Shown: piece by piece, positions 824-31,917 of the stretch | How positions within the stretch are numbered: position 1 is the first letter of the stretch | Layout: every line of letters begins with the position of its first letter | Virus record (IMG/VR): IMGVR_UViG_3300030099_002989 | Location: 1-44,579 of that record | Direction: 5' to 3' (one strand) | Origin: a virus | Length of the DNA: 44,579 nucleotides | The notes under the pieces: model-generated | Database searches by the model: none | Told to the model about the DNA's origin: nothing | The model's input: only the letters and a program-made list of their open reading frames with translations | Position numbers and translations under genes: made by a program

Positions 824-826
824 AAG

Positions 827-16435: not shown

Positions 16436-16918
16436 TCAAGGTTCTTCTGGAGCGCCGTCGGGACTAGATGGTTGTACGGGTGGTTCGAGATAATTAATCG
16501 CTCTCTTCAAATTCTCTGCGCAGTCTCCCAGAAATCCCAAACCTCTGTTGGTAGAGCCGTTCAGCAAGCCACGAATCTGTCCAGTCCGGTGACAGTGATC
16601 CACATGGCAAGTTTTTGCATCCAACTTTTGGAGCGTCACTGGATCTTTCCCGTCCTGCTGATCCCAAAGATCCCACCACATTTCCTTTGTCATCCCGAAC
16701 TTTTTTTTCATCTTGTCCCATCTCTGGCACTCCTTGCAAATTAAGTTGGGATACGACTTACCATTTTTCTTAGTAGACCAAGAAAACTCACTACTCGGCA
16801 GAACCTTCAGGCACACCCGACACTTGCACTGGTGTTTCTTCTCGCTCAAGCGAAGCCTCCAAGCGCGCGAGGATTTCAAGTTCCTCTTTACCATCATCGG
16901 AAAAGCGCGCTTCGGCAT
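16436..16918 (-). CDS. recombination endonuclease VII-like (His-Me finger) nuclease
   Basis: This encodes up to 160 residues. CxxC pairs near residues 33-36 and 61-64 can bind zinc. The active-site block CHVDHCHRTGQIRGLL at 104-119 followed by NRGLG is typical of endonuclease VII and related HNH enzymes that resolve branched DNA. The usual second Cys pair (LLCxxCN) is replaced by LLNGSTN. Branch trimming before packaging fits its place next to the terminase. The start is uncertain (ATG 16918, or 16897), since no Shine-Dalgarno is seen. The 3' end overlaps the possible terminase N-terminal extension. Confidence 0.8.
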   Translation of the reverse strand: MPKRAFPMMVKRNLKSSRAWRLRLSEKKHQCKCRVCLKVLPSSEFSWSTKKNGKSYPNLICKECQRWDKMKKKFGMTKEMWWDLWDQQDGKDPVTLQKLDAKTCHVDHCHRTGQIRGLLNGSTNRGLGFLGDCAENLKRAINYLEPPVQPSSPDGAPEEP

Positions 16919-17962: not shown

Positions 17963-18114
17963 TACTTCTTGCCCTTCTTCCAACCGCCACCTTTGGACTT
18001 GTACCACTTTGCAGCCCATCCGTTGGCGTATGCGGATGGGTACACCTTAAACTTAGATTTAGCCAGCGACTTTGCTCGGCTCCACAACGATGGGTTTGTT
18101 GGTTTGTTAGCCAC
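17962..18114 (-). CDS. 50-residue conserved basic phage protein
   Basis: This starts with GTG 18114. The product begins VANKPTNPSLWSRAKSLAKS and has YPSAYANGWAAKWYKSKGGG near its end. This matches a family of short proteins (N-P-x-L-W-x-x-A-K ... Y-P-S-A-Y-A-x-x-W) common in aquatic phages. The stop TAA overlaps the next start. An out-of-frame ATG sits two bases before the GTG, so the start is slightly uncertain. Confidence 0.6.
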   Translation of the reverse strand: MANKPTNPSLWSRAKSLAKSKFKVYPSAYANGWAAKWYKSKGGGWKKGKK

Positions 18115-19153
18115 ATGCACCCCAGTTTGAAATTACTTTGAGAATGGCATTGAAGCCGTTGTTTGTCTGGTAGTGGTATCGGTAAGAAGCCACATCCCCA
18201 AGAACTTGTAACAAATCTTCAAAACCTACAATTCCGTCTTCGTTAAGGTCAGACGGACACGAGTTGTCTGCGTCGTACTCGACTTGGTATGGCGATGGTT
18301 CGCACGGGTGGTCATTGCCACAAGCAAAGCGCACAACGCCAGAAGAGACGAACCTGTCGGGACCGGTGAACCTAGCGATATGAAACGAACCCGGCCACTT
18401 CTCGCTCATCCAATCAACGTCAGCGTTCCAGCGGATCAGGTCACCGTAGTCATTTTGTGATGGTGCAGAACAGCACCTCTGACCTTGAACCTCACCAACT
18501 GGTATCGGCTCCCAATACTTGATAATCATGCCAAGTGTTGGGCTTGGGCTTATCAAATCCTTGTGCTGCTGCTGCACCAACGGGTACTTGTATTGCTGTG
18601 AGTTCCCGTACTTCTTGCCCAACGGACCGTGCAGAATCCACGAGTCACACCATGCGTACTCAAGGTCAACCAGATCAGCCGTCCGTGGACAGCATCCCTG
18701 TGGGCCTTCAAACACCCAGTTGATTGGGGTGAAGTTCATACCCAGATACATCCAACGCTGGTATGGGTTGGCTTGGATGCAGTCCCAATACTCTCCTGCT
18801 CCGGGGCAAAGAATACCGGTGTCTTGGTTCCAATAGTCGATGCACTCTTGGCAGTTCTCTAGCCAAGGGTAAACGCTGTCAGGTCTGTGGTTCTTGAAGA
18901 CCTCGCCCTGAATCATCCAAGTAAATGCACGGGATGGCGACTCATTGCCACGGGTGCAGCCAATCATGTACGGGCGGCGTGGATCTCCGTTGGGGTACGA
19001 GAAGTCAGGGTCAAACCCAGTCTGGATGTACACGTCAAACGTGCGACCAAACGGAGTCAAACGACCCAGATCATCAATCCACATCGCCACCGCATCGGGG
19101 TCACTTGGTGGCCCAGCCAAAACAGACAAAAAAGACAGCAGGAAAGACATCAT
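18107..19153 (-). CDS. secreted-type protein with C-terminal dockerin-like module
   Basis: This encodes 348 residues. The N-terminus MMSFLLSFLSVLAGPPS looks like a short signal peptide. The main part is rich in Cys, Trp and Tyr, with no known domain. Residues 299-348 run CPSDLNEDGIVGFEDLLQVL and end VISNWGACG. This is the calcium-binding D-x-N-x-D-G loop plus WGxC ending found in secreted proteins of Planctomycetota and some marine bacteria, often with a terminal disulfide. A phage gene of this kind may have been captured from the host. Function unknown; surface display or host envelope binding is inferred. It overlaps its neighbours. Confidence 0.75.
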   Translation of the reverse strand: MMSFLLSFLSVLAGPPSDPDAVAMWIDDLGRLTPFGRTFDVYIQTGFDPDFSYPNGDPRRPYMIGCTRGNESPSRAFTWMIQGEVFKNHRPDSVYPWLENCQECIDYWNQDTGILCPGAGEYWDCIQANPYQRWMYLGMNFTPINWVFEGPQGCCPRTADLVDLEYAWCDSWILHGPLGKKYGNSQQYKYPLVQQQHKDLISPSPTLGMIIKYWEPIPVGEVQGQRCCSAPSQNDYGDLIRWNADVDWMSEKWPGSFHIARFTGPDRFVSSGVVRFACGNDHPCEPSPYQVEYDADNSCPSDLNEDGIVGFEDLLQVLGDVASYRYHYQTNNGFNAILKVISNWGACG

Positions 19154-19993: not shown

Positions 19994-20371
19994 AACCCCA
20001 TCATCGGGTCTTACCTAACTTAACACCCCAAAATCCACCGTGTATTTGCATGGGCTATGTAATATGTAGTGCAGGCAGGGGCGTGGATCTGTCTTTGACA
20101 GATCAGCAGCAGAGGCAGCCAAAATCTAGCGTCAGCCCCCTCTAGGGGCTGTTGTGGCCGTGGTTCAAGCGTTCGGTTGGCCATTTTGCTGTGCAAAATG
20201 CACACGCGCGCGCACGCAAGGCTTCGCACAGGTTTGGATGGTATCCAAACCCCATGGGAAGCCCCATGAGTCGGCACGGGGTTTGCCATGCAAACCCTCA
20301 GCGGGGACTACTGAACTGTCGGATCGGAGCAAGGTCAGCCCGGCCAACCTTGAACCCCAAAGGGGTTCATA

Positions 20372-20420
20372 CTCCCATTTCCTTGGGGGGGAGTCTTACG
20401 ACCCCCCAAGGAAATGGGAG
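20372..20420 (+). repeat. AGTCTTACGA-apex hairpin, copy 1
   Basis: A perfect 19-bp stem joins 20372-20390 and 20402-20420, arms CTCCCATTTCCTTGGGGGG and its complement. The 11-base loop is GAGTCTTACGA, in which GTC and GAC can pair further to leave a TTAC tip. No U-tract follows. It lies 68 bases upstream of the first early gene, after an 8-bp hairpin with AAA loop. Confidence 0.9.
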
Positions 20421-20475
20421 GTAGCAGCAAAGTTGCTGCTGTCGAGGGTCGAGTTCATTTTGCTGCTGAAGCAGC

Positions 20476-20488
20476 AGGAGTTTGTACC
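20476..20488 (+). promoter_or_regulatory. initiation cassette AGGAGTTTGTACC-ATG
   Basis: A Shine-Dalgarno AGGAG lies 8 bases before ATG 20489, in a 13-base block that is nearly the same at 21309, 21489 and 23689. It decides the start of the 20489..20896 gene over an upstream in-frame codon at 20414. A 6-bp hairpin ends exactly at the start of the AGGAG. Confidence 0.8.
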
Positions 20489-20896
20489 ATGGCGAAGCCA
20501 TCACAAAAATCAGTCCGTGTCCCCAAAGCCTCGGCTTTGGACATCATCAACGCCGTCCTTGCTCAGCATGCTGAGCAATCAGAAGCAGACCAAGGTCAGG
20601 AGTATCCTGACCGCTGGACTGAAGAAATGAAATTTCTTTCCGAGCGTATCGAGAACCTCCGGTTCTCAATGAACAGAGTTTGCGAAGCAATCGACCGAGC
20701 CGACCAGATTCTTGACGACGATAACATCGTCGGAGGGATCAACGAAGAGGATGCCGTCACTGCTGGATCAGCAGTGATGTCGGCCAGTGATCTTATGGAT
20801 CACTGCTGGGAGGAGATGGAGATCATGGAGAATCGGTTGAACCGATTGGATGCGGCTACATACTCAGCCACGGAGGACGAAGGCTGGGTTGACTGA
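20489..20896 (+). CDS. first early gene, acidic helical protein, unknown
   Basis: This encodes 135 residues beginning MAKPSQKSVRVPKASALD. It is acidic and mostly helical (EEMKFLSERIENLRFSMNRV) with a second helical half, possibly a coiled coil. No family is recognised. It is the first gene after the divergent region, so a host-takeover or regulatory role is plausible. The coding sequence is unusually rich in hairpins: 20523-20540, 20559-20578 (a 20-base palindrome), 20594-20612, 20651-20667, 20716-20732, 20757-20777 (9 bp), 20785-20805 and 20831-20847. Confidence 0.7.
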   Translation: MAKPSQKSVRVPKASALDIINAVLAQHAEQSEADQGQEYPDRWTEEMKFLSERIENLRFSMNRVCEAIDRADQILDDDNIVGGINEEDAVTAGSAVMSASDLMDHCWEEMEIMENRLNRLDAATYSATEDEGWVD

Positions 20897-20927
20897 GCCG
20901 AAGGGTTCAACACCCAAAGGGTGTTGT

Positions 20928-20979
20928 CCCCCTCCTGTGTAGAGGAGGAAGTCTTACGACTCCTCTACACAGGAGGGGG
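20928..20979 (+). repeat. AGTCTTACGA-apex hairpin, copy 2
   Basis: A perfect 19-bp stem pairs 20928-20946 with 20961-20979; the arm is CCCCCTCCTGTGTAGAGGA. The arms share no sequence with copy 1, but the loop again contains AGTCTTACGA. Preceded two bases earlier by an 8-bp AAA-loop hairpin, the same tandem arrangement as copy 1. Confidence 0.9.
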
Positions 20980-21243
20980 TCACCAACCAAAGTGACCTCG
21001 ACAAACCGATTCGATCCGGAGCGATCCGGACACCTCTATGCTACGGCGTTGAGGCTGGCCGACAAACGGCGAAGCCGAAGACGAGCGAAAGAGTCCACGT
21101 CTCCAGTGGTTGGTAACCACTGGGAAGGGCGGCACGACGGTAGCAGGGTGAATTGCACATTTGCTACCAGCAAATGGAGCCGCGTATGGCAACTTCGTTG
21201 CGGTAGGCACCAGCCACGGCTTGGCATGGATCGAAGATCGGTA

Positions 21244-21298
21244 GCCGCTCATGGCAAAGGCTAGAGCCTTTGGTGGGGTTCGATTCCCCTCAGCGGTA
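21244..21298 (+). other. tRNA-like element lacking an anticodon arm
   Basis: Acceptor strands GCCGCTC (21244-21250) and CAGCGGT (21291-21297) pair at six of seven positions (one G-U). A two-base AT linker, a 16-base D-arm-like part (21253-21268, GGC/GCC stem, GG in the loop), a five-base variable part (TTTGG) and a T arm follow. The T arm is GGGG/CCCC around loop TTCGATT, matching the tRNA B-box GGTTCGANTCC. The span equals a tRNA from which positions 26-43 are missing. No CCA is encoded. A competing 8-bp hairpin (CAAAGGCT/AGCCTTTG) covers the D arm. It could be a tRNA mimic, a decayed tRNA or an integration-site tRNA fragment. Confidence 0.5.
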
Positions 21299-21308
21299 TT
21301 CAACAAAC

Positions 21309-21320
21309 GGAGTTTGCACC
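21309..21320 (+). promoter_or_regulatory. initiation cassette GGAGTTTGCACC-ATG
   Basis: This block is the start-site cassette of 21321..21482. It is identical to 23689-23700 and exactly complementary to 22153-22164 further down the same transcript. It fixes the ATG at 21321 rather than an in-frame start at 21270. Confidence 0.85.
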
Positions 21321-21482
21321 ATGTTTGAGTTTGAGATCGTCCTCCGGTGTCGAGACACCGGACACACACACACCATGACCGTAGCAATCCAGTCGGATTG
21401 CACCACGGATGCCAAGTTTGTCGCGGCAGAGAATCTGCCGATGACCGAGACCGAAGAGATCATCAGCGTTCAGCCTTGCTGA
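21321..21482 (+). CDS. small early protein, unknown
   Basis: This encodes 53 residues beginning MFEFEIVLRCRDTGHTHTMT and ending IISVQPC. It is probably a small alpha/beta protein: two strands with a charged helix. No family is recognised. The coding part holds hairpins at 21344-21361, 21384-21401, 21424-21440 and 21468-21484 (over the stop codon). Confidence 0.65.
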   Translation: MFEFEIVLRCRDTGHTHTMTVAIQSDCTTDAKFVAAENLPMTETEEIISVQPC

Positions 21483-21488
21483 ACAGAA

Positions 21489-21500
21489 AGGGTTTGCACC
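21489..21500 (+). promoter_or_regulatory. initiation cassette AGGGTTTGCACC-ATG
   Basis: A variant of the shared cassette with a weaker Shine-Dalgarno (AAAGGG). It can pair with the complement at 22153-22164 at 11 of 12 positions, which would link the start region to the 3' untranslated part of its own gene. Confidence 0.75.
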
Positions 21501-22151
21501 ATGTCCGAAGCAAAAATCATCACCACCGAAGGTGACACTTTTCTCTCCGATGTCTACATCGACTCGGAGTCATGGATCACCTCGGTCACAGACCGAGAGA
21601 TCGAGGCCGACAACGAAAGCGACGAGTTCATCTTTGCTTCTGACGAAGCAGCGGTCGCGTCTTTGCTTGCAAAGACCAAAGGCGAGCCGTATGTCCGAGT
21701 CGGCTCTGGAGCCGACAACACATACAACCACGAGAACAACTTTGCGGAGCAAATCCTGTTCTCGCTTTGGGTTCCCCAAAGCATGATTGACGACCATTGG
21801 TCGTCCAACGGTGGAGTTGACTCCGCCGATTGGTTGTACTGCGACAACTTGGTTGTCGCTTGCAACCTCCACCGAGGTGGAGATGTCCGGGGCAACTACG
21901 GCGATATCCGCCTCTTCGAGGTGGATAGCATCGGCGACACTTCGTTCTTCGATTGGTGCGTTGGATGGCATGTCGAAGACGGCGAGGGCAACGACCTTGA
22001 TTCTCAAGGTAAGTTCCAAGTCGGCTACGCCTCAAGTCCACTCCACGAAGTGGAGATGGAGTTTGGTGAGCGTGGCGAGTGGCGCGAAGGGAAGTTCTAC
22101 TTCGACGCTCATCCCGGCGTGGTGGCTACGCCATACACCATCACTTACTGA
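21501..22151 (+). CDS. early acidic protein, unknown
   Basis: This encodes 216 residues. It begins MSEAKIITTEGDTFLSDVY, has EIEADNESDEFIFASDEAA early, and is rich in Trp, Asp and Gly. The C-terminal part (HEVEMEFGERGEWREGKFYF) is beta-like. There are no membrane spans. I recognise no family. The gene is full of hairpins, such as 21661-21674, 21699-21716, 21841-21859 (8 bp), 21867-21882 and 21995-22009. Its 3' untranslated part contains the complement of its own initiation cassette. Confidence 0.7.
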   Translation: MSEAKIITTEGDTFLSDVYIDSESWITSVTDREIEADNESDEFIFASDEAAVASLLAKTKGEPYVRVGSGADNTYNHENNFAEQILFSLWVPQSMIDDHWSSNGGVDSADWLYCDNLVVACNLHRGGDVRGNYGDIRLFEVDSIGDTSFFDWCVGWHVEDGEGNDLDSQGKFQVGYASSPLHEVEMEFGERGEWREGKFYFDAHPGVVATPYTITY

Positions 22152-22152
22152 C

Positions 22153-22164
22153 GGTGCAAACTCC
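22153..22164 (+). promoter_or_regulatory. antisense-like complement of the initiation cassette
   Basis: GGTGCAAACTCC begins two bases after the stop of 21501..22151 and is the exact complement of GGAGTTTGCACC at 21309-21320 and 23689-23700. In one long mRNA it could pair with these ribosome sites and lower translation. It is observed in sequence; the role is inferred. Confidence 0.6.
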
Positions 22165-22222
22165 CCACCGCGTGAGGCTCTGCCTTGCGTGGTGGGTTTG
22201 CCGAAAAGGCGACAACCGAATA

Positions 22223-22267
22223 CCCCTTTATCTCAGGGGGAGTCTTACGACCCCTGAGAGAAAGGGG
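22223..22267 (+). repeat. AGTCTTACGA-apex hairpin, copy 3
   Basis: A 17-bp stem with one mismatch pairs 22223-22239 and 22251-22267 (arm CCCCTTTATCTCAGGGG). The loop is GAGTCTTACGA, as in copy 1. It sits 73 bases upstream of the ATPase start. Confidence 0.9.
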
Positions 22268-22340
22268 AAAGCAACTGGCAAGTCAGCGATGGTCGTTGGC
22301 TGCCGTAAAACTGGCGCTGCTTTGCAGCAAGGAGATGGCC

Positions 22341-23618
22341 ATGAGCCGACGAGAATTGACCGAGGCTAGGAATCGCATCAAGGCGGTTTGCAACCTCTCG
22401 GGGACGAAGTCCTCGCTGTACAACTACCTTCGGATGCCGGAAGCAAGGTTCTTGCTTCAGGATGATGCAAACGGAGCCAAGATGTGGCTCCAACAGTACG
22501 GTGGTGACGCTGTCAAGGCGGTACTTTCGTACCGATTCGCTGGTGACTGGCCTGCTCTTCTGCAAGAAGAGTGCAAGGAACGATTCGCCGACCCCACCGA
22601 CTTACGTCGGCACTACCGGCTCAAGATGGTCGGCGGCGACCCAACGTTCTTGGAACGTTTGGTCTCATCGTTCGGCGGCGAGCCGCTTGACATGCCCCTT
22701 GGGGCAGAGGATCAGCCCCAGCCTGCTCCGGTTCCACCCCCTCCACCCAATCAGGAATTGCTAAAGCAATCCCCCGACAACCCCTTTGCTAGGGCAAAGG
22801 AGATGATCGAGCAAGCCGTTGCCAATGGCACGATCAAGAACCCACACAAGCAACTCTCCGAGATGCTGACCTGCGTTCTGATGTTCGGTAGGTGCTACGC
22901 CGCTGGTCCCTCCGGGACTGGCAAGTCGTTTGCAGCGAAGCAAGTCGCTGCAATCCTTGGCCGTGAGGACATCTACCATGGCTGCAACAAGAACGACTAC
23001 CCCGAGAAGTATCTCGGCAACCCCACCCTCGACGGCACCTTCAAGGAAGGTGTCGTGACTGGGGCATACGACAAGCCAGTCGTCCTCGTCCTTGACGAGA
23101 TGGACAAGGCAGACAGCGGTTGCACCGCATGTCTCAACCAGTTCGTCAACTTCGATGACAACGTAAACGTTGGTGACCGCAAGGTTCACCGTCACGAAGA
23201 CTTCGTCTTCATCGGTACTGGCAACTCAGCCATGGATGGCCCGGGCGGTAGCGAAGGTGTCTACGACACCGAGCGTCAGTCAGCCGACTTCGTCGCTAGG
23301 TGGGAGCAACTCGGTGTGATGGTTCACTTCGACTACGACCCCGACATGGAGCGTGTCTTGCTCGGCATGTTTGCTTCTGAGTACGACCTCCTTGCTAAGG
23401 CAAGGAAAAACATCAAGGACGAAGGGGTCTCGTCAGCCCGCACCATCCAGACTCGTACATGTCTTGGATGGCAGAAGTGGCGTTCCGCCGGCCTCACCAT
23501 TGGTGAGACAGTCGGCCGGATGTGTCGGCTTTGGTCTCCTACGGAGATCAAGAAGGTGTGGAAGCACCTGACCAAGACGGACTTGGACATGGCCGTGTCG
23601 ATGGTTGGATCATGGTGA
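22341..23618 (+). CDS. AAA+ ATPase (MoxR/CobS-like)
   Basis: This encodes 425 residues from ATG 22341, which follows AAGGAG with six bases. Longer in-frame starts run through hairpin 3 and are rejected. Residues 1-140 are helical with a Pro-rich hinge (QPQPAPVPPPPP). Walker A GPSGTGKS is at 189-196, Walker B VVLVLDEMD at 247-255, sensor 1 FIGTGNS at 290-296, and Arg-finger candidates follow at 312 and 320. This is the CobS/MoxR-like branch, which remodels partner proteins, often with a VWA-type partner. The next gene is DUF7192-like, a pairing known in other phages. Hairpins fill the gene, for example 22440-22458, 22473-22491, 22519-22534 and 22555-22571. Confidence 0.85.
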   Translation: MSRRELTEARNRIKAVCNLSGTKSSLYNYLRMPEARFLLQDDANGAKMWLQQYGGDAVKAVLSYRFAGDWPALLQEECKERFADPTDLRRHYRLKMVGGDPTFLERLVSSFGGEPLDMPLGAEDQPQPAPVPPPPPNQELLKQSPDNPFARAKEMIEQAVANGTIKNPHKQLSEMLTCVLMFGRCYAAGPSGTGKSFAAKQVAAILGREDIYHGCNKNDYPEKYLGNPTLDGTFKEGVVTGAYDKPVVLVLDEMDKADSGCTACLNQFVNFDDNVNVGDRKVHRHEDFVFIGTGNSAMDGPGGSEGVYDTERQSADFVARWEQLGVMVHFDYDPDMERVLLGMFASEYDLLAKARKNIKDEGVSSARTIQTRTCLGWQKWRSAGLTIGETVGRMCRLWSPTEIKKVWKHLTKTDLDMAVSMVGSW

Positions 23619-23640
23619 TCCAACCCAACCAATAACCCAA

Positions 23641-23684
23641 CCCCTCTCCTACTGGGGGAGTCTACGACCCCAGTAGGTGAGGGG
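23641..23684 (+). repeat. AGTCTACGA-apex hairpin, copy 4
   Basis: A 17-bp stem with one mismatch pairs 23641-23657 and 23668-23684. The loop GAGTCTACGA is the family apex with one T lost (GTC-TAC-GAC). It is preceded by a 10-bp hairpin (23603-23625) over the ATPase stop codon and lies 16 bases before the next ATG. Confidence 0.9.
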
Positions 23685-23688
23685 ATAA

Positions 23689-23700
23689 GGAGTTTGCACC
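23689..23700 (+). promoter_or_regulatory. initiation cassette GGAGTTTGCACC-ATG
   Basis: AAGGAG lies 8 bases from ATG 23701, directly after hairpin copy 4. The 12 bases are identical to 21309-21320 and complementary to 22153-22164. Confidence 0.85.
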
Positions 23701-24630
23701 ATGCAATTCACAGCAAAGCACGACGACAACACCATGCTCGAATACTTCGACTCCGTCGATGACTTCGTGCAAAAGGTCACCAAGGAGCGGACGCTCTCCA
23801 TCGACACCGACAACAGCCACGGCGGTTGGGCTGCTGCTCTAAAGAGCAACCCAAACTACAGCGACTCATTCCACACCGGAGGTGTCCGGTTTGCAGATGC
23901 TATGTCGGACATTGAATGCGGCGTTTGCACCAATGAAAAGACTCGCAAATGGTACGACAAGGCACGGCGGGAGGCCGCTAAGGTCTTGCTCGGCAAGACC
24001 GGCAACCGCACCAAGACGTATGCAAAACGGAAACGCAACTCCGTTGCGGCAGGTGGTGGGTCACCGATGATCGACCGCTACCTCAGCGGTACGGAGTACC
24101 ACTGGCGGCGCAAACAGAACGAAGCCTTCCACCCATTGGTGACGCTAGGCGTTGGCATCTCTGCTGCTTGCAGCACTGACGGCAAGAAGTTTGCCGAGTG
24201 TTGGGGACGAGCCACTGCTCTTGCAGAGCAACTTCAGAACGACGGCTACCCCGTCCGCATCGAGGCCGTCATCGGCCAGTCCGGTGACGACAGCCAATTT
24301 TGCACCGGCACGGGGACACGTCACGTTGGCCAAGGTATCTGTGTCAAGCCTGCTGATCGACGAGTCGATCCGCAAGCGTTGATGGCACTGGGTCACCCAG
24401 CGTTCTACAGAACGCTTTGCTTCGAGTCGTGGTGCCAACCGTTGCCAAGAGCCTTGGCCAAGTTCCAGATGTACTCCAGTGGAGGGCTGGGTTCACCTGC
24501 TCGCCGTGCAGCGACATATCAAAAGATCCACGGTGACCGCTACGACATGCTGCTCACCCCGGTCGAGGACATGCAAGACCTCACCGAAGCGTACCTCTCC
24601 ATCGTCAACAAGGGACTTGTTCGTTCCTAA
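23701..24630 (+). CDS. DUF7192-like partner of the AAA+ ATPase
   Basis: This encodes 309 residues. It begins MQFTAKHDDNTMLEYFDSVD and has a conserved-looking block SHGGWAAALKSNPNYSDSFH, then RRKQNEAFHPLVTLGVGISA and a long alternating alpha/beta region (ALAEQLQNDGYPVRIEAVIG). The last reads like a VWA-type or Rossmann-type sheet and may be the site the ATPase acts on. Phage DUF7192 proteins commonly follow CobS-like ATPases. The job of the pair is not known. Gene order and the shared hairpin style suggest they are co-expressed. Confidence 0.7.
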   Translation: MQFTAKHDDNTMLEYFDSVDDFVQKVTKERTLSIDTDNSHGGWAAALKSNPNYSDSFHTGGVRFADAMSDIECGVCTNEKTRKWYDKARREAAKVLLGKTGNRTKTYAKRKRNSVAAGGGSPMIDRYLSGTEYHWRRKQNEAFHPLVTLGVGISAACSTDGKKFAECWGRATALAEQLQNDGYPVRIEAVIGQSGDDSQFCTGTGTRHVGQGICVKPADRRVDPQALMALGHPAFYRTLCFESWCQPLPRALAKFQMYSSGGLGSPARRAATYQKIHGDRYDMLLTPVEDMQDLTEAYLSIVNKGLVRS

Positions 24631-24657
24631 TTGACGACGGTTGAACCACACCTTACA

Positions 24658-24710
24658 CTCCCCTGAATATCTGGGGGGTAATGAAATGAACCCCCAGAGA
24701 TTCGGGGGAG
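24658..24710 (+). repeat. long intergenic hairpin, copy 5 with divergent loop
   Basis: A 20-bp stem with one G-U and one mismatch pairs 24658-24677 with 24691-24710. The loop GTAATGAAATGAA does not contain the AGTCTTACGA apex. The right arm ends GGGGGAG, which could act as ribosome site for ATG 24724, so the stem may hide or expose it. Confidence 0.8.
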
Positions 24711-24723
24711 ATTGGAACCCACT

Positions 24724-25203
24724 ATGAATATCGAACTCATCACTCAACTCAACACCATTCTCGCCGCTGCCTCCAAGGAGGCTGGCATCCCTACCGGCGG
24801 TGACATTGACCCGAAAATTCCGGGACGTGTCCTTGCTATTCGTGAATACGTTGGCGACCTGCTTCGTGAAGCCGAGCGCATCGACAGCGATGCCGACACC
24901 GTTGCAGACAACATGGATCGTATCGACACCGAAGTCAAGGACTTGGCAAGCGAGATCCGCGAGATTGGTGACGCATCACTCAGTGAAGCAAACCAGTACA
25001 TCGACCACGCCGAGTCCCATTGCGAGGGCATCGACGTTGACTACCACGAAGCACGTTGTCTTCGTGATGACATCCAATCACTCACTGAAGGGATGAACAT
25101 CCTGTACGGCAGGCTCGACGACCTTGTCGCTTCGCTGCCCCCCGTCTCCGACGAAGAGACACCCAACGCCGCAAACCCACAAACCGAAGAGGTGCAAGCA
25201 TGA
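24724..25203 (+). CDS. early coiled-coil protein, unknown
   Basis: This encodes 159 residues from ATG 24724 (a TTG in-frame at 24712 is one base from the GGGGGAG and is less likely). The middle (AERIDSDADTVADNMDRIDT and on) is a long heptad helix, acidic. The C-terminus is loose and Glu/Asn/Pro-rich. It may form a dimer or filament. No family is recognised. It overlaps the next gene by four bases. Confidence 0.65.
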   Translation: MNIELITQLNTILAAASKEAGIPTGGDIDPKIPGRVLAIREYVGDLLREAERIDSDADTVADNMDRIDTEVKDLASEIREIGDASLSEANQYIDHAESHCEGIDVDYHEARCLRDDIQSLTEGMNILYGRLDDLVASLPPVSDEETPNAANPQTEEVQA

Positions 25204-25694
25204 ATGAAAAAGACGTAGACGATCTATTCCCCGAATTGGAATCGACCGGTGATCCGGGCGATTGGAAAGATGTCATTGGCACAATGACATTGTTAGGACA
25301 CCTGCCAGTCCCGGCAGATGAGGAAACGGAGCAAATGTTCAAGTTTGCTTGCACCCTCAAAGAGCCGAACGACCAGCGCGGTCTTATGCTCTCGTCCATC
25401 ATCAAGGCGTACGGCTCAAGGTTCAAGAACCTTGGTGAACTGGCTGAGCAACTTGCAGATTTTGCACGGATGGCTGCGGCAGGTGAGCCGTTGGACTACC
25501 GCAAGATTGCGAACGATGCAAACAAGTTTGCAGCACAGAATCAACAGATGGTTGATTTGTGCGACAAGATACTTTCCTCACTTGGAGAGCGGAACCAGCA
25601 TGAGTACCGCAAACGTGTAATCGCACTGCACGAACTCCACACAAGTGTGGCGAGAATATGGTCTGGGGATGACGACTCGGAGGCCAGCGAGTGA
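25200..25694 (+). CDS. early helical protein, unknown
   Basis: This encodes 164 residues: acidic N-terminus (MNEKDVDDLFPELESTGDPG), helical core (GELAEQLADFARMAAAGEPL) and an acidic tail GDDDSEASE. Overlaps with its neighbours by four bases on both sides imply one coupled unit with 24724..25203 and 25691..25810. No family is recognised. It holds the hairpin 25417-25434. Confidence 0.65.
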   Translation: MNEKDVDDLFPELESTGDPGDWKDVIGTMTLLGHLPVPADEETEQMFKFACTLKEPNDQRGLMLSSIIKAYGSRFKNLGELAEQLADFARMAAAGEPLDYRKIANDANKFAAQNQQMVDLCDKILSSLGERNQHEYRKRVIALHELHTSVARIWSGDDDSEASE

Positions 25695-25810
25695 TACAGA
25701 CCATATTCAAAGTGATCGTGGGTACGGCGAAAGCCGTACTCACGGTCTTCGATATCAACGGATACGACCGTGTGTATGGAGACACGGTAGAAAGGCACGA
25801 GGATCGCTAA
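25691..25810 (+). CDS. 39-residue early protein
   Basis: GTG 25691 overlaps the TGA of the previous gene and the stop TAA overlaps the next ATG. The product begins VIQTIFKVIVGTAKAVLTVF and is amphipathic or mildly hydrophobic, possibly membrane-associated, with a charged C-terminus (DTVERHEDR). The exact fit between two genes supports it. A 7-bp hairpin with a GAAA tetraloop (25722-25739) lies inside. Confidence 0.55.
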   Translation: MIQTIFKVIVGTAKAVLTVFDINGYDRVYGDTVERHEDR

Positions 25811-26037
25811 TGACCCGTGATGAACTGGTTCTAAAGACCAAGATAAAGATCGAAATCGAATTGACTGGCAACCAAGTCCGTGCTTTGCAAAGAGTGAAGT
25901 ACGAACACATGACGGATGTCAATGACACGAACTATGAGGCAGGAACTCTAATCACTGTTATCAGTGATATCTATGACGACCACTTTGACAATGACCTAAT
26001 CCGTCCCGACTGGGACGCTGAGATGGAGGAACGCTAA
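25810..26037 (+). CDS. 75-residue early protein, unknown
   Basis: This starts at ATG 25810, right on the previous stop. It begins MTRDELVLKTKIKIEIELTG, beta-like, then helical, with an acidic end (DWDAEMEER). The longer frame from 25645 is a shadow of the upstream genes. No family is recognised. Confidence 0.6.
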   Translation: MTRDELVLKTKIKIEIELTGNQVRALQRVKYEHMTDVNDTNYEAGTLITVISDIYDDHFDNDLIRPDWDAEMEER

Positions 26038-26450
26038 TGACTTCTAAACCTGACGAAACAATCAAGGCAATTCTTTTGCACACCAACGGCACGAAACAAG
26101 AAGTGCAAATTGGGAAGAACAACATCAAAGACATCTACGATTTGATTGGATGTGATGTGTTCACCGTTGTACCAGTGGCGAAGAAGTCGCCAGCAGGTGA
26201 CACTGGCCTATCCGTGTATGTGGATGACGAGGGTTTGCTCAAGCAAAACTCGGTTGTCAATATCTGGAGCATCTGGCTCTCTGGCTTCATTGGCTACAAC
26301 GCACCACTCATGGGCAACATTCTGTTGACTGGCCCAACAGACATTGATGGGTACGACACAGATGTACCTGACAGTCTTGCGGAGCAAATCCCACCAACCT
26401 TACGACCTGACCCTGAACTAGAATTCTTCTTCTACTCAAAGGAAAACTGA
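26037..26450 (+). CDS. DUF3846-like protein
   Basis: This encodes 137 residues. The part VYVDDEGLLKQNSVV, then a hydrophobic stretch, then LMGNILLTGPTDIDGYDTDV matches the layout of DUF3846: a Tyr/Val-Asp-Asp-Glu-Gly, an Asn, and later a conserved G-x-x-x-x-x-G with D-x-D-G. Such small proteins are frequent in phages and plasmids, function not known. It is coupled with 25810..26037 and lies two bases before the sirtuin. Confidence 0.65.
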   Translation: MTSKPDETIKAILLHTNGTKQEVQIGKNNIKDIYDLIGCDVFTVVPVAKKSPAGDTGLSVYVDDEGLLKQNSVVNIWSIWLSGFIGYNAPLMGNILLTGPTDIDGYDTDVPDSLAEQIPPTLRPDPELEFFFYSKEN

Positions 26451-26451
26451 C

Positions 26452-27120
26452 ATGACAACAGACTTCGCTTATGAAATTGATGACGATTTGCTTACGGCAC
26501 GCAAGATGTGCAAGCAAGCAAAAAACATTGTCATATTCTCTGGCTCCGGCCTGAGCAAAGCGAGCGGTGTCCCGACCTATCGGGACATGGACGATCCAAT
26601 ATGGCAAACACACGACCCCAAGATATATGGCAGCAGGCACGGCCTCGTCAACCACACTGACATGGTGCTGGAGCAGTACGAACGGTGGCGTGACGACCTT
26701 GCAGAACTCAAGCCCAACTCTGCACACGAAGCAATCGCCAAGTGTGACAAGGTCACAACCCACATCACGCAAAACGTCGATGACCTCTCGGAGCGTGCCG
26801 GCAAACCTGCCATTCATTTGCACGGCGAGATTATGAAGGACAAACTTGACCCCGAACTTGGGGTCATGCGTCCAGACGTTGTGCTGTTCGGTGAGTGTTT
26901 ACCACTCACCGAGATGGCCATTGCACACGACAGGATGAAGGAGGCCGATCTGTTAATCGCCATTGGTACCTCTCTTGAGGTACAACCTGCGGCCAGTCTT
27001 TGGACTGATATTGCGGGTGACAACTCGATCTTTATCAATCCAAACGTGTCGTCACCCGTTGGTGTTTCAATCGACATACCGGTTGAACATGTGCTGAGCA
27101 AACTCCTATGCAATGCGTGA
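26452..27120 (+). CDS. Sir2-family (sirtuin) protein lacking the zinc site
   Basis: This encodes 222 residues. Sirtuin motifs: GSGLSKASGVPTYRD at 31-45 (NAD-binding GAGxSxxSGIPxFR), TQNVDD at 106-111, a catalytic His in LHG at 123-125, RPDVVLFGE at 140-148 and GTSLEVQPA at 172-180. Normal sirtuins have about 45 residues with four zinc-binding cysteines between LHG and RPxVVxFGE; here there are only 14 residues and no cysteine. Role open: NAD+-dependent deacylation, or NAD+ consumption or protection in host defence (inferred). It overlaps the recombinase by 13 bases. Hairpins at 26569-26586, 26890-26910 and 26966-26983. Confidence 0.85.
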   Translation: MTTDFAYEIDDDLLTARKMCKQAKNIVIFSGSGLSKASGVPTYRDMDDPIWQTHDPKIYGSRHGLVNHTDMVLEQYERWRDDLAELKPNSAHEAIAKCDKVTTHITQNVDDLSERAGKPAIHLHGEIMKDKLDPELGVMRPDVVLFGECLPLTEMAIAHDRMKEADLLIAIGTSLEVQPAASLWTDIAGDNSIFINPNVSSPVGVSIDIPVEHVLSKLLCNA

Positions 27121-27800
27121 TCTACGCCCGCTTCTCCCCCAGACCGGGGGAGAGCGGGTCAATTGAAACCCAGTACCAAGAGTGTGAGCAGTTTGCAAAA
27201 GCAAACGGCTGGACGATCCTCGGCAAGCATGGCGACGAACACAAAAGCGGGGCTGATCCCGAACGCCCCGGCCTATGGGCTGCCATGGAGCAAACACCAA
27301 AAGGCGGTGTGCTGTTGGTTTGGAAGATGGATCGACTTGCACGGGATCTGTATCTGGCTGAGGCTTTGCACCGACATGCTGAGAAGCATGGCTTCCGCAT
27401 TCAGGCTGCACGCGAAGGTGTGCAAGATGACACGGCTGAGGGCAGGCTGATACGTCAGGTGTTATCCGCAGCAGCCGAGTACGAGCGTAGGCTTGTGCAG
27501 GTGCGTACGAGCGTTGCTATGCGACGCTACCAGTCCGAGGGCAGGCGCATGTCGCGGCATCCACCTTACGGTTGGATGCTATGCGATGCAGACCCAACCA
27601 GATTGGTACTCAATCAATCGGAGCAGCAGGCAATTGACAAGATGCTAGAGTGGCGCGAGGCTGGATACGGCTGGCGTTCCATCTGTGATTTGCTCACTCG
27701 GAATGGCTTTGCTCCTCGCGGGAAGGCGTGGGATGCGTCGTCGGTTCGGAGGATCTGTACCAGAACTCCTGAACGGCGCGGGGAAAGTCTACAACCCTGA
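27108..27800 (+). CDS. serine recombinase (resolvase/invertase family)
   Basis: This encodes 230 residues. The catalytic block YARFSPRPG has Ser10 and Arg8; KMDRLARD at 73-80 is the conserved D-R-L-x-R motif; EYERRLVQVRT follows, then a shortened recombinase domain with PYGW near 155. It ends with HTH-like helices (WRSICDLLTRNGFAPRG). It is too short for a large serine integrase (usually 450 or more) and fits an invertase or resolvase. It might resolve multimers, invert DNA, or integrate. No inverted sites were found. Its 3' end overlaps the opposing 27694..28074 gene by 107 bases. Confidence 0.85.
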   Translation: MQCVIYARFSPRPGESGSIETQYQECEQFAKANGWTILGKHGDEHKSGADPERPGLWAAMEQTPKGGVLLVWKMDRLARDLYLAEALHRHAEKHGFRIQAAREGVQDDTAEGRLIRQVLSAAAEYERRLVQVRTSVAMRRYQSEGRRMSRHPPYGWMLCDADPTRLVLNQSEQQAIDKMLEWREAGYGWRSICDLLTRNGFAPRGKAWDASSVRRICTRTPERRGESLQP

Positions 27801-28074
27801 ACGCTACAACCCAATCCCCGTGGTCTTCTCGCATGAAGACTACGGGGATTGTTCCGTCTTTTGCATCTTGCACCGCTTGATCCATGAACCTCATGGCTGC
27901 AATACTTTTGCGCCGCTTAACCTCAACCCATAACTCTGGACATCCTGCGACATCGGGATCTATCGCGCCGTCGCTTTGTCTTGCACGCCTTGCAGATGGG
28001 AAGCCAAGCCCGCGCAAAATACCTACGACCTCACGCTCGCCCCGCTTGCCCTTGTCACGCTGCGCCTTGCCCAT
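27694..28074 (-). CDS. PD-(D/E)XK resolvase-like nuclease
   Basis: This encodes 126 residues. The basic N-terminus (KAQRDKGKRGEREVVGILRG), DPDVAGCPELWVEVKRRK (Asp, then Glu-x-Lys) and IPVVFMREDHGDWVV give the layout of small PD-(D/E)XK enzymes that resemble Holliday junction resolvases. It would resolve recombination intermediates made by the RecE-like pathway. Its coding sequence contains the large hairpin 27812-27851. Confidence 0.7.
   Translation of the reverse strand: MGKAQRDKGKRGEREVVGILRGLGFPSARRARQSDGAIDPDVAGCPELWVEVKRRKSIAAMRFMDQAVQDAKDGTIPVVFMREDHGDWVVAFRVVDFPRAVQEFWYRSSEPTTHPTPSREEQSHSE
27812..27851. terminator. bidirectional terminator-like hairpin inside a coding region
   Basis: A 17-bp stem with a single wobble pairs 27812-27828 and 27835-27851 around loop TCGCAT. 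It begins 11 bases after the recombinase stop, where the plus early operon meets the minus replication block. It also codes for part of the resolvase-like protein. No clear U-tract, so its role as a terminator is inferred from place and stability. Confidence 0.55.
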
Positions 28075-28086
28075 ACCTACACGATG

Positions 28087-28521
28087 CTATGCGATGCAGC
28101 CGAATCTTTCAATTGGGATGTGGTAGACAGGTTCAACGTCGCCGTCGTCGCGTGTATTCACTGTGCGGCCACCAAACTGAAGCCAGTTGTAATTTTCCAC
28201 ACATTCGTTTAGACACACATGATAAATGGTGTCGATGGCGCGCACTATCAACATTGTGCGTAAGCCTGTTGCGTTGAGCAGGGAGTCGGCAGCCTGCACT
28301 TTGCTCAAACTAATCATCACATCTGGGTACTGCCCCCATTTAAAGTTGCGGTGTTTGCACTCTGCAAAAGCCTTTGGCTTGTCTGCGCTCATCAGAATAA
28401 AATCCATGCGATATGAGATTGGCAGTTTGTAATACTGCACGCCCCACTTCGCACTGACATGCGACATCATCTCGTGTTCTCGTGCTAAGTCGGTCGCCTG
28501 TTCGTACATGGGTCTACTCAT
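28087..28521 (-). CDS. PD-(D/E)XK-like nuclease
   Basis: This encodes 144 residues from ATG 28521, which overlaps the previous stop. Longer starts are rejected, since they invade 28514..28690. YRMDFILMSADKPKAFAECK gives Asp ... Glu-x-Lys, the PD-(D/E)XK metal site, followed by a helix (ISLSKVQAADSLLNATGL). A nuclease or repair job is likely. Two such nucleases lie side by side in this block. Confidence 0.6.
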   Translation of the reverse strand: MSRPMYEQATDLAREHEMMSHVSAKWGVQYYKLPISYRMDFILMSADKPKAFAECKHRNFKWGQYPDVMISLSKVQAADSLLNATGLRTMLIVRAIDTIYHVCLNECVENYNWLQFGGRTVNTRDDGDVEPVYHIPIERFGCIA

Positions 28522-28690
28522 CGTCGTCAAAATCCTCTCCGATGCCCTCTTGGTCATGCTCGTACCAAAGTTCAAGCAAAAGCAATTTGATGACACCAAG
28601 AACCTCGTATACAGTCATGTCAAACTCAACCGCAAAGTTCGTGGTTGTTTGTTTGAGGGTTTGGTGCAACTTTTCGGCTGCTGACTTCAT
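28514..28690 (-). CDS. 58-residue protein with acidic tail
   Basis: This begins MKSAAEKLHQTLKQTTTNFA, a helix, and ends acidic (EGIGEDFDDDE). AAGGAG lies five bases before ATG 28690. The ATG overlaps the primase stop. Possibly a small partner or DNA mimic. Unknown. Confidence 0.6.
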   Translation of the reverse strand: MKSAAEKLHQTLKQTTTNFAVEFDMTVYEVLGVIKLLLLELWYEHDQEGIGEDFDDDE

Positions 28691-29508
28691 CGGATCTCCT
28701 TTGCTTGCTCTGCAATGACATCGACAATTGCTTTGGTGGCTCCACGCTGAACCCACTCATTTGCATCGTCGCCGTCCTTCGGTTCGATAACCTTAGCGGA
28801 TCGCTTGGCTTTTGCGAGTTGCGTTGCAACAAGTTTTGCACCATCTCTTCCGGGCTTATCTTTGTCTGCGACTACCACGCACTCATTTGCAAATGGGATC
28901 AGTTCGCACAGGAATTTGCTTCCAGTGTTGCACGATGGTCTGCCAACCGCAACAAGGCCAAGAGAGAGCATGGCGGCTGTGTCTGTTGGTCCCTCGCATA
29001 CATACACCCTGCCTGCCCGTGGCATCTCCACATCTGGATCTAAAAACAGGCCGTTGCGAGAACCTTTAACTGAAGACTTTTTGCCACTGGGATAGCGCAA
29101 ACGTACACCGCAAACCTGCCCCTTGCCGTTCCGCATAGGAAAAGTGTATGCGCCTTTGGATTGCGACCACCCTGCTCTTATGCGACGCAGAGACTCAACA
29201 GTACACCCTGTGTTGGACTTTAAGAAATCCCACTGGTAGTCCTGCATGCCCGCATGGCATGTCTCAACCCTGTCTGCCCACGCCGGTGGTGCAAAGTCAG
29301 GAATTTCAAGGGGAGCAACTTTTGCCAACGGGGTTTGCAATAACTCAGACGGCTTGTGCAGCCACCCTGCGTCACCCACACGTTTTTCCGATGGGGTTCG
29401 TGGACAAATTACCGCAAGCCCATCTTCAGATATCAAACACCAATCAGGCTTGCCGCAAATCGGACACCTGTTGTTTCTGTTCACTCGGCTCCACCCCGAT
29501 GTAGTCAT
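28687..29508 (-). CDS. DNA primase, Toprim type
   Basis: This encodes 273 residues. A zinc ribbon with C15, C18, C24 and C35 (CPICGKPDWC and LAVICP) is followed by a helical linker. The Toprim fold comes next: VYVCEGPTDTAAM (Glu172) and VVVADKDKPGRDGA (Asp215, Asp217). It makes RNA primers or acts as a primase-like protein with the helicase. There is no fused replicative helicase domain, unlike T7 gp4, so the DEAH helicase upstream would have to supply unwinding or the host does. Confidence 0.85.
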   Translation of the reverse strand: MTTSGWSRVNRNNRCPICGKPDWCLISEDGLAVICPRTPSEKRVGDAGWLHKPSELLQTPLAKVAPLEIPDFAPPAWADRVETCHAGMQDYQWDFLKSNTGCTVESLRRIRAGWSQSKGAYTFPMRNGKGQVCGVRLRYPSGKKSSVKGSRNGLFLDPDVEMPRAGRVYVCEGPTDTAAMLSLGLVAVGRPSCNTGSKFLCELIPFANECVVVADKDKPGRDGAKLVATQLAKAKRSAKVIEPKDGDDANEWVQRGATKAIVDVIAEQAKEIR

Positions 29509-29719
29509 CCAAATCTCCTTGGTCTATTCCAGTTTGCTCCATCCAGTTGCGTAGATTGGTCAGGCTTACACGCCGGTGAGTTGATCCGGGGATGCGAAAG
29601 CCTTGAAGGTAGCCCTTGTCAATCTGACGAATGATGGTTTGCTGTGACATTCCACACAGGCTTGCGATTTCGCCCGTGGTTAGGAATCTATTTCGTTCGG
29701 TCTTTCCAGTTGAACCCAT
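29444..29719 (-). CDS. HTH regulator or excisionase-like protein
   Basis: This encodes 91 residues. FLTTGEIASLCGMSQQTIIR followed by QIDKGYLQGFRIPGSTHRRV is a winged HTH of the MerR/excisionase (HTH_17) kind. It overlaps the primase start by 65 bases and the sigma-like gene by 40. It could regulate early genes or direct the serine recombinase. Function inferred from motif. Confidence 0.75.
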   Translation of the reverse strand: MGSTGKTERNRFLTTGEIASLCGMSQQTIIRQIDKGYLQGFRIPGSTHRRVSLTNLRNWMEQTGIDQGDLDDYIGVEPSEQKQQVSDLRQA

Positions 29720-29979
29720 ACGTTTTTTCCGTCGATTCTCCGCCTTACTGCACCATGCAAACGGCGGTACTTATAGTTGACATCCTGAATAATAATTCGC
29801 GTCAGGAACCGCGATAGCGACCCCTTTTGGGGGTCAAATCTTTTATCCACCGCCGGGCGAGCGATCAGATATGTCTCGCTCACCAGTTCGTCCACTGTCC
29901 ACTTCCGGAAGTGGCCTTTGCTCTTTTGCATCCTCGCTAGAAAGAACAGAAGTTTCAGGTTCTCGTCTAGCAGGTGCAT
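29680..29979 (-). CDS. sigma-70 region-2-like protein
   Basis: This encodes 99 residues (a start at 29931 gives 83). TVDELVSETYLIARPAVDKR and RFDPQKGSLSRFLTRIIIQD look like sigma region 2 (core-binding helix, then the -10 recognising helix). Region 4 is missing. It could be a phage sigma-like switch, or a structural remnant. It overlaps the helicase by 137 bases, or 89 with the shorter start. Confidence 0.55.
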   Translation of the reverse strand: MHLLDENLKLLFFLARMQKSKGHFRKWTVDELVSETYLIARPAVDKRFDPQKGSLSRFLTRIIIQDVNYKYRRLHGAVRRRIDGKNVWVQLERPNEIDS

Positions 29980-31600
29980 CGGGTAATTTCCATCCAGCGG
30001 CAGCGATCTCGTCGATCAGTGCTTTTGCCTCGTATGAGGATCGGGCTGTAAGTTTGTATCGGTCAAGGATTGCCTCTTGCTTGAAACTTGGACGGCCAAG
30101 TTTCCTGCGCATCATAATGTCCCCAACCAATCTACCAGCCTGCTTGCGCGTCAATCCTGTCGGATCGACACCATTGTTCATCAACATGGCTTGTTGCTTT
30201 TCGGATGCCTGCTCTCTGGGGTCTGATGGGTGGACTGGGGTCATGTCGAAACGTGCAAAAGGGTCAACCTCTCTGGCGTGGTAATCAGCCTTAAGTTTGA
30301 CTTTTGCTTTGCGAAGGATTTCACGCTGGCGTGCCTCTTCGCGCTGCTTCTCCTCTTCCTCCCGGATCTCCGCCATGCGCAGAGCATCCTCTGGGTCGGT
30401 CACCCCTTCGTCAGCAATGATCCTTTTTGCACGGTCAACCACACCTTCTGGCTTGTTGCCGGCAAGAACATCTGCCATACCTATCAGTTTGTGACGGCCG
30501 GAGTTACCTTTGAAGTCAACAACTGTGCAAAAGGGTTTTTCACTCGACCCGATGGCCGCCACCCGCTGCTCCTTCGTCATCGTCTGCAAAGGTGGAGTGA
30601 TCGGCCTCGTCGCTCGACCCACGCACTGGACGTACTTCGCCCGCACCTTGGTCGCTGTCATCATTACGATTGCGTCGCAACGGGGAGCGTCGAAGCCCTC
30701 GGTAAGCACTCCAACATTCGTCACAAATTGAAGCGACCCACCCGCAAATCGCGCAAGTATGTCCGCCCTCTCCTCTGGGCTGGTCTTTCCATGGACACAT
30801 GCTGCTATGCCCTCCTTGTGTCTGTTAAATACTTCGGCAGCCATTTCAGCCTGCCGCACTGTTGCACAAAACACGATTGCACTCTTGTCCTTGAGTAACT
30901 CAAGGGTTGGTGAAACCATGCCGTGTATGTTCTTTTCTTGCTCCAGCACCTCAGCCAAGTCGCCCCCGCACAGGTCGCCCAACCTTGTCTTGATCTCAGA
31001 GTAATCAAGGCTGCCCACAGTGACGTACTGCTGGCGGATAGGCACAAGCCATCCGTCACGAACAGCATCACCAATTTCGTACTGGAATGGGCAGTCATCG
31101 AAGATTTCCCCAAGACCCAGTTGATCTCCACGGTCAGGAGTAGCGGTTACCCCAATCACTTTGTGCTTGGGGTTTTGCTGAAAGTGATCTATGACGTTTC
31201 GGTACGACTTCGCAAGCGCGTGATGTGCCTCATCAATGATGAGCAAGTCCCATTCGTCGGGCTGAAAACGCTGGTATCTACGGTCTAAAATCCATTTTGC
31301 ATTCATGGTTTGCACCGAAGTGACGAAGACTGGAACCTCACCTTTAGCCCATTGTCCAGCCTTTTCAATCTCTGGCTGCACGCCAGCGATTTGCTCAATA
31401 CGGCTGGCGGCTTGGCGAATCAACTCATCACGGTGCGCCATGACGCAGACACGCTTGCCTTTGCTCAAGGCTCTGCGAATGATTTCGCAAAAGATCGTAG
31501 TCTTTCCTACACCAGTTGCCGCGACCAGCAGGCACGACCGATTCCTTGACAAAGAATTGGACGCAGCAGCGATTGCTTGGTGTTGGTAATCACGAAGCAT
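29843..31600 (-). CDS. SF2 DEAH-box helicase
   Basis: This encodes 585 residues from ATG 31600. Walker A AATGVGKTT is at 27-35, DEAHHA at 123-128, TATP near 153, and motif VI (QCVGRATRP) near 350. After residue 400 there is a highly charged helical part (AEIREEEEKQREEARQREIL). It unwinds DNA in replication or recombination. The start overlaps the zinc-ribbon gene stop by 11 bases. Confidence 0.85.
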   Translation of the reverse strand: MLRDYQHQAIAAASNSLSRNRSCLLVAATGVGKTTIFCEIIRRALSKGKRVCVMAHRDELIRQAASRIEQIAGVQPEIEKAGQWAKGEVPVFVTSVQTMNAKWILDRRYQRFQPDEWDLLIIDEAHHALAKSYRNVIDHFQQNPKHKVIGVTATPDRGDQLGLGEIFDDCPFQYEIGDAVRDGWLVPIRQQYVTVGSLDYSEIKTRLGDLCGGDLAEVLEQEKNIHGMVSPTLELLKDKSAIVFCATVRQAEMAAEVFNRHKEGIAACVHGKTSPEERADILARFAGGSLQFVTNVGVLTEGFDAPRCDAIVMMTATKVRAKYVQCVGRATRPITPPLQTMTKEQRVAAIGSSEKPFCTVVDFKGNSGRHKLIGMADVLAGNKPEGVVDRAKRIIADEGVTDPEDALRMAEIREEEEKQREEARQREILRKAKVKLKADYHAREVDPFARFDMTPVHPSDPREQASEKQQAMLMNNGVDPTGLTRKQAGRLVGDIMMRRKLGRPSFKQEAILDRYKLTARSSYEAKALIDEIAAAGWKLPDAPARREPETSVLSSEDAKEQRPLPEVDSGRTGERDISDRSPGGG

Positions 31601-31859
31601 GGAACTCTTTTGGCTGCATTGCAGCAAACTCTTTGCTCATCCAGCCAGTTTCTTTGCATGCGCGGCAGCCCTGCCCTGAGCAGTAGCCGCACATAACATC
31701 TGGAGATGCAAGTTTGAGATGGTTGTCAACCGCTTGAATGTGAACCATCACTGCCTGTTTGTCCAAGACTGGAGTGTCTAGTTTGGTTGAAAGAAGAGCG
31801 GTGTTTGCAAGCAACGCCCGTATCTCTCGGATCTTGTTTTGCATATCAGTCGCGTCCAT
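31590..31859 (-). CDS. small zinc-ribbon protein
   Basis: This encodes 89 residues. The N-terminus MDATDMQNKIREIRALLANT is helical. CGYCSGQGCRACKETGW is a DnaJ-type zinc ribbon (CxxCxGxGC). It is the first gene of the minus replication block. No Shine-Dalgarno is visible (GTGTTTGC-ATG), and the promoter candidate lies only a few bases upstream, so a leaderless mRNA is possible. Confidence 0.6.
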   Translation of the reverse strand: MDATDMQNKIREIRALLANTALLSTKLDTPVLDKQAVMVHIQAVDNHLKLASPDVMCGYCSGQGCRACKETGWMSKEFAAMQPKEFHAS

Positions 31860-31865
31860 GCAAAC

Positions 31866-31894: not shown

Positions 31895-31917
31895 CCAAAA
31901 GAATCTGGTTTTTTCTC

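Follow-up and report, generated by a model that had tools for sequence, protein, structure and literature searches.

A dense block of short hairpins at the 5' end of a phage operon, possibly maintained as structure in early mRNA

Why should several thousand nucleotides of a phage genome, genes and gaps alike, be filled with small hairpins that share no stem sequence? The question is raised by a 44,579-nucleotide (nt) viral stretch, IMG/VR record IMGVR_UViG_3300030099_002989, positions 1 to 44,579, referred to here in its whole length as the window. A preliminary description, made from the letters alone, had claimed that the region from 20086 to 27400 is packed with perfect inverted repeats. 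We find that the hairpin excess is real, exceeds what shuffled sequences give and is tied to the 5' end of one operon. As to its cause, we put at about an even chance the reading that an early mRNA is under diffuse selection for local hairpin folding. The block is as follows:

20086..27400, plus strand: hairpin-dense block with 98 perfect hairpins, taking in the first plus-strand genes past the divergent point

Hairpins were counted as perfect inverted repeats with arms of at least 6 base pairs (bp) and loops of 2-8 nt, and expectations were taken from dinucleotide shuffles. Against 11.5 expected, the block holds 98; 59 of them have arms of at least 7 bp (2.9 expected) and 30 have arms of at least 8 bp (0.9 expected). 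The late operon, at 1-20085, lacks this packing, as had been noticed by eye, and stands at chance (29 versus 31.6 expected). With arms of at least 6 bp and loops of 3-5 nt, the density is 10.80/kb in the block, 1.75/kb at 27401-44579 and 0.65/kb in the late operon, in agreement with the chance figure of ~0.73/kb first proposed. All 12 hairpins listed in the preliminary description are perfect inverted repeats at the coordinates given; the one at 20559-20578 is a 10-bp perfect palindrome with a loop of 0, which we count as 9 bp with a loop of 2. Along the window, the count is 0-6 per kb before 20.0 kb, jumps from 0-2 to 23 at 20.0-21.0 kb and then declines (23, 18, 11, 12, 12, 10, 9, and 5 per kb from 20.0 kb), with the highest density, 21/kb, at 20086-22100. 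The spacing of 30-60 bases originally suggested holds for 20086-22150, where the mean unpaired gap is 30 nt; further on the gaps are wider. Regularity of spacing is weak in the window (P 0.02-0.03) and missing from most other blocks of this kind, and the stem sequences within the block are unrelated to one another. A sequencing artefact is ruled out by near-identical blocks in independent metagenomes (L109, L179, and L189).

Coding and non-coding parts are alike in hairpin density, with 77 hairpins in 6068 nt and 14 in 1247 nt, respectively. The excess survives the permutation of synonymous codons within each gene: the first gene (20414-20896) has 12 hairpins versus a permuted mean of 1.4, and the AAA ATPase gene has 17 versus 2.5. 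When RNA folding was limited to 100-nt spans, the minimum free energies of three of the first four genes tested had z-scores against synonymous shuffles of -4.7 to -6.4 on the sense strand and -5.1 to -7.2 on the antisense strand. The main plus-strand operon (20.0-27.8 kb) runs divergently from the late operon, and the block makes up its first part; this position suggests that the block is transcribed early. The edge of the block falls sharply at the divergent point, both in the window and in two further loci described below (G001 and G002), and in G001 a promoter-like TATAAT, found by eye, lies just upstream of the edge.

The hairpins leave ribosome start sites free. For 41 gene starts that have a Shine-Dalgarno-like sequence, hairpins cover a fraction of 0.077 between -20 and +15, compared with 0.228 at random positions of the same blocks; a value this low never arose in 10,000 simulations. 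Coverage falls to 0.03 at the start itself, is back to 0.2 by +20, and reaches 0.32 at -30 to -20. Hairpins thus keep clear of the footprint of the initiating ribosome, which means that they fold well enough in mRNA to be excluded from it. The first gene gives an example:

20478..20522, plus strand: hairpin-free translation start of gene 1, CAGGAGTTTGTACC-ATG at 20489

A second structure, missed in the preliminary description, accompanies the small hairpins. The gaps between block genes contain long hairpins with wholly different stems and one common apex, in which the stem is followed by a 3-4 nt bulge, GGA(A), and by GTC-TTAC-GAC. The copies in the window are:

20372..20420, plus strand: copy 1, 18-bp perfect stem, 3-nt GGA bulge, GTC-TTAC-GAC apex
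20928..20979, plus strand: copy 2, 19-bp perfect stem of other sequence, GGAA bulge, GTC-TTAC-GAC apex
22223..22267, plus strand: copy 3, 15/16 innermost stem positions paired, GGA bulge, GTC-TTAC-GAC apex; ends read from sequence
23641..23684, plus strand: copy 4, 15/16 innermost stem positions paired, GGA bulge, apex GTC-TAC-GAC (loop one base less); ends read from sequence
24658..24710, plus strand: variant long intergenic hairpin in a similar position, apex GTAATGAAATGA instead of GTCTTACGAC; read from sequence, not found by motif

Sixteen stem-borne copies from 11 records were collected, of which 15 were aligned; 224 of 256 stem positions pair, and in every copy the last bases of the bulge are GGA or GGAA. 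The element is oriented with the transcribed strand in the window, G001, and G002. It reaches the gathering score of no Rfam family, and the copies in the window are followed by no T run, so that they differ from an intrinsic terminator, which joins a GC hairpin to such a run. The apex is constant across phages of 35-62% GC, which suggests a conserved partner, and the element is probably a companion RNA element, the putative binding site of one shared factor. In seven AT-rich contigs, the same GGAGTCTTACGACTCC core is found in a simple bulgeless stem, in some with terminator-like T runs, and these contigs have no hairpin block.

We scanned IMG/VR for the element apex and separated chance matches from contigs with the apex in a bulged long stem. 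This revealed a wider phage family, also missed before: G001/G003, G002, G005/G006, G007, G008, G009, G010, and G011 each have one block of ~1.5-7 kb that holds or adjoins the element, with the weakest block in G011. The densest kb of each of these contains 14-26 hairpins; in 103 unrelated contigs of at least 5 kb, the median is 5 and no contig exceeds 9. Block size varies, because in one clade of three contigs (L061, L062, and L228) the element is preceded by a short cluster only, with 6-9 hairpins over 800 nt. G006, G007, and G001 are mutually related, as are G009 and G010; otherwise, the proteins in common are a helicase with its small neighbour (window and G002) and a giant virion protein (window and G008). 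One protein common to all members was looked for and not found, and the trait recurs in phages without common early proteins. The structural genes of G001 resemble those of Zobellviridae, and the giant 2875-amino acid (aa) protein of the window resembles one of Pseudoalteromonas phage Pun_Y3. Hairpin counts revealed no block in the cultured relatives (Celeribacter phage P12053L, Salinivibrio phage CW02, and Pun_Y3) or in T7. Phage N4 is mildly raised, with 7, 4, 4, 4, and 6 hairpins per kb in its first 5 kb (positions 1-5000), roughly double the density in the remainder of the N4 stretch that was read, which may be a weak form of the trait. The SIR2 or AAA protein as query gave no relatives among viral contigs, Megablast against phages gave no match, and the start signal GGAGTTTGCACCATG as search key gave no loci of the family. 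Matches of a 19-mer in GTDB (Acidobacteria and Nitrospira contigs of metagenome-assembled genomes) were dismissed, as they have no stem and no block and two matches are about what chance gives.

Comparison of relatives shows how the hairpins turn over. G007 and G006 are mostly 72-86% identical where aligned, and between them kept hairpins have compensated changes (CACTTCC-AAA-GGAAGTG versus CACTACC-AAA-GGTAGTG; CCCCAGT..ACTGGGG versus CTCCAGT..ACTGGAG), which bears out the earlier suggestion that codon choice preserves the pairings. Other hairpins have moved within the same protein segment (EFYGLPLVDDEG versus EFYGLPLIEDEG). In 13 moved, gained, or lost hairpins, the changes are evenly spread over the arms (chi-square ~12 on 13 degrees of freedom, a comparison of low power). 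This even split fits stepwise selection and, with little power, leans against template switching. Of the 15 differences that separate L053 from L056, no more than one or two lie in a stem.

The apices of the small hairpins were compared over nine blocks (35 kb). Loops of 3 nt dominate (184, compared with 80 of 2 nt, 79 of 4, 37 of 5, and 11 of 6), accounting for 184 of the 422 hairpins with loops of 1-5 nt, and GAA is the commonest loop. The closing pair of the 3-base loops is C-G in 132, T-A in 29, G-C in 12, and A-T in 11, and the outermost pairs are balanced; the apex is thus chosen for stability. Per available apex, the sense version is favoured (GAA over TTC, GTA over TAC, TTT over AAA, and CTTG over CAAG; pooled odds ratio 1.73, p=0.008): C-GAA-G is used in 21.6% versus 11.8% for C-TTC-G, and C-TTT-G in 29% versus 18% for C-AAA-G. 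C-GNRA-G is used in 8 of 60 cases and C-GNYA-G in 0 of 70, with no such split for the reverse-complement classes. This bias, drawn from small numbers and from loop classes picked post hoc, speaks for the sense strand, and for RNA over DNA. In the unpaired sense sequence, AAGA is the only motif low in all nine blocks relative to the coding background (132 versus 221) and CCCC is enriched; no ribonuclease site pattern was recognised among the motifs avoided between hairpins.

From these data, we infer that the hairpins fold as RNA in vivo, that the region is an early one, that the hairpins have a shielding role, and that the element has a partner. In the proposed mechanism, the block would lie at the 5' end of the first (early) operon, and its mRNA would be selected for many small, very stable local hairpins amid which the ribosome initiation sites would be left open. 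Individual hairpins would come and go, mainly through synonymous or conservative changes of which some are compensated on both arms, while their density would be kept. The hairpins would most likely shield the early transcript against single-strand-specific host ribonucleases, RNA-guided or toxin-type RNA defence, or Rho. The restriction to the first operon suggests a hazard specific to the time before host takeover: the shield would be needed until the phage disables the host, and later operons would not need it.

Several observations weigh against selection on the RNA. The excess in folding energy is the same on both strands. G-U makes up ~1% of stem pairs and exceeds A-C as a trend only (24:11; coding background 26:28; p=0.08). 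The loops, with a mode of 3 and a steep fall, are shorter than those in single-stranded RNA (ssRNA) phages and would suit DNA hairpins too. Any hairpins that fold in mRNA should spare the start sites, regardless of what they were selected for, and this sparing alone is no proof of RNA selection. As a test of strand, the comparison of G-U with A-C was abandoned: it had been taken as evidence for DNA in the window alone, has no clear lean over nine blocks, and proves a weak discriminator in the ssRNA phages, which together with 23 contigs with a GDD replicase motif have a ratio of 1.5:1.

The preliminary description had proposed three causes. Selection for RNA structure is the best supported: the apices favour the sense version, they include C-GNRA-G and never C-GNYA-G, the hairpins keep off the initiation footprint, and the block has its edge where transcription diverges; template switching is leaned against at low power. 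A role of single-stranded or extruded DNA is still viable, because the favoured apex class C-GNA-G is also required for the extrusion of N4 DNA hairpins, where the closing pair must be C-G with G and A at the loop ends (PMC4496689). Under this view, early DNA, supercoiled or single-stranded, would extrude small hairpins like those at the promoters of the N4 virion RNA polymerase (vRNAP), for recognition, supercoil relief, or protection of the entering DNA. The triloops with C-G closure and GAA at their head, the stems that are 97% Watson-Crick and equal on both strands, and the mild rise in the first 5 kb of N4 all agree with this idea, and N4 promoters (Schitoviridae) share the short stem, short loop, C-G closing pair, and early region (PMC4496689). 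However, those promoters are few and have conserved stem and start-site bases, whereas ~100 sites with unrelated stems, many inside genes, are found here, far beyond promoter needs. No vRNAP homologue was recognised: by sequence comparison, the 2875-aa protein (33302-41929) shows no N4-type RNA polymerase domain, no Pfam match, and no PDB chain below E=1, and its C-terminal part is like phrog_22602 (virion structural). In addition, ssRNA phages, which have no DNA stage, share the order of closing pairs, GNRA exceeds GNYA on the sense strand only, and the edge coincides with the point from which transcription diverges. We regard a DNA-level role as unlikely.

Control of transcription would attribute the block to an anti-pausing and anti-termination system, in which nascent-RNA hairpins behind RNA polymerase block backtracking and Rho loading and the element acts as an antitermination RNA like put of HK022. 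The element is indeed repeated between genes in the transcribed orientation, with a bulged long stem and a conserved apex, and it is limited to the first operon, as is put, a cis-acting RNA of early operons whose structure includes bulged stems (PMC9378689). Yet put is a single RNA of ~70 nt with two stem-loops, one per operon, acting over 10 kb (PMC9378689), so that carpeting of genes would be unnecessary; the element described here consists of a single long stem, with a GGA bulge and a TTAC apex, occurs in 1-4 copies, has no adjacent pair of stem-loops, and comes with in-gene hairpins. The terminators to be bypassed are likewise hypothetical, and we consider this explanation quite unlikely. 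Template switching by fold-back, either close to an origin or in single-stranded DNA undergoing transcription, which would perfect quasi-palindromes and leave hairpins as functionless by-products, fits the near-perfect arms, short loops, gradient from one edge, little G-U preference, and turnover of position at constant density, but is improbable given changes that are even over both arms instead of on one, like densities in coding and non-coding sequence, few or no stem changes between L053 and L056, and the sense-strand bias.

Selection for RNA folding finds its closest likeness in the ssRNA phages (Leviviricetes: MS2, Qbeta, PP7, and AP205), which also have many local hairpins with short loops in coding RNA and C-G as the commonest closing pair. 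As in pervasive coding-RNA structure of the ssRNA phage or genome-scale ordered RNA structure type, the structure here exceeds codon and composition controls; in contrast, it is restricted to one block per genome, the first 1.5-7 kb of one operon in a double-stranded DNA (dsDNA) phage, instead of a whole RNA genome, and has far fewer mismatches. Perfect hairpins number 12.7/kb in the blocks versus 4.6/kb in five known ssRNA phages (~2.8x), which serve as a partial control, since the two RNA strands are both important there. Among IMG/VR contigs of 2-4 kb, those with a long open reading frame and a GDD motif, apparently ssRNA phages and used as a control set, mostly have 3-7 hairpins/kb. The early RNase III processing sites of T7 are long bulged stems between early genes; T7 has no hairpin excess, and an apex conserved across unrelated phages is not a feature of RNase III sites.

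The genes and start signals of the block are as follows:

20489..20896, plus strand: early gene 1, 135 aa from this start, no confident family, sense z=-4.7 against synonymous shuffles
21501..22151, plus strand: early gene of no family, 216 aa, z=-5.95 against synonymous shuffles
22341..23618, plus strand: early gene, AAA_5 (MoxR-like) ATPase, the gene with 17 hairpins
23701..24630, plus strand: early gene, DUF7192
26037..26450, plus strand: DUF3846 gene, hairpin density low
26452..27120, plus strand: SIR2-family gene
27108..27800, plus strand: serine resolvase/recombinase gene, within which hairpin density drops to background
21309..21323 and again 23689-23703, plus strand: recurrent start signal GGAGTTTGCACCATG
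21492-21503 and 20480-20491, plus strand: start-signal variants GTTTGCACCATG and GTTTGTACCATG, respectively

Three further observations were made. At 21237-21300, a tRNA-like piece, CCGCT ... GGGGTTCGATTCCCC TCAGCGG, resembles an acceptor stem and T arm around an anticodon-arm-like hairpin and has no D arm; ARAGORN finds no tRNA there. The phage, rich in short inverted repeats, has two Holliday-junction nucleases, endonuclease VII-like and RusA-like (16436-16918 and 27694-28074). A 348-aa protein at 18107-19153 carries a C-terminal dockerin-like DLNEDGIVGFEDLLQVLG repeat, which we take to be typical of secreted proteins of Planctomycetota and thus a hint of the host.

A small hairpin about every 50 bases except at ribosome starts looks like a previously undescribed structuring of early phage mRNA; in the open-access literature, searched by full text and with subscription papers outside its range, we found no precedent for such blocks, and the novelty is provisional. 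More broadly, dsDNA phages of unrelated groups may recurrently armour the mRNA of the first operon against RNA decay or RNA-directed defence, with a carpet of hairpins open only at initiation sites and a shared cis RNA element, a view to which we give slightly less than an even chance. If true, protection or control of mRNA would be encoded in the genome through codon choice over a whole operon, with no protein or single leader, and what early phage RNA must withstand in uncultured hosts would become testable. The GGA-GTC-TTAC-GAC hairpin would serve as a search key for further members, and the blocks would offer a natural design rule for mRNA that is both structured and translatable.

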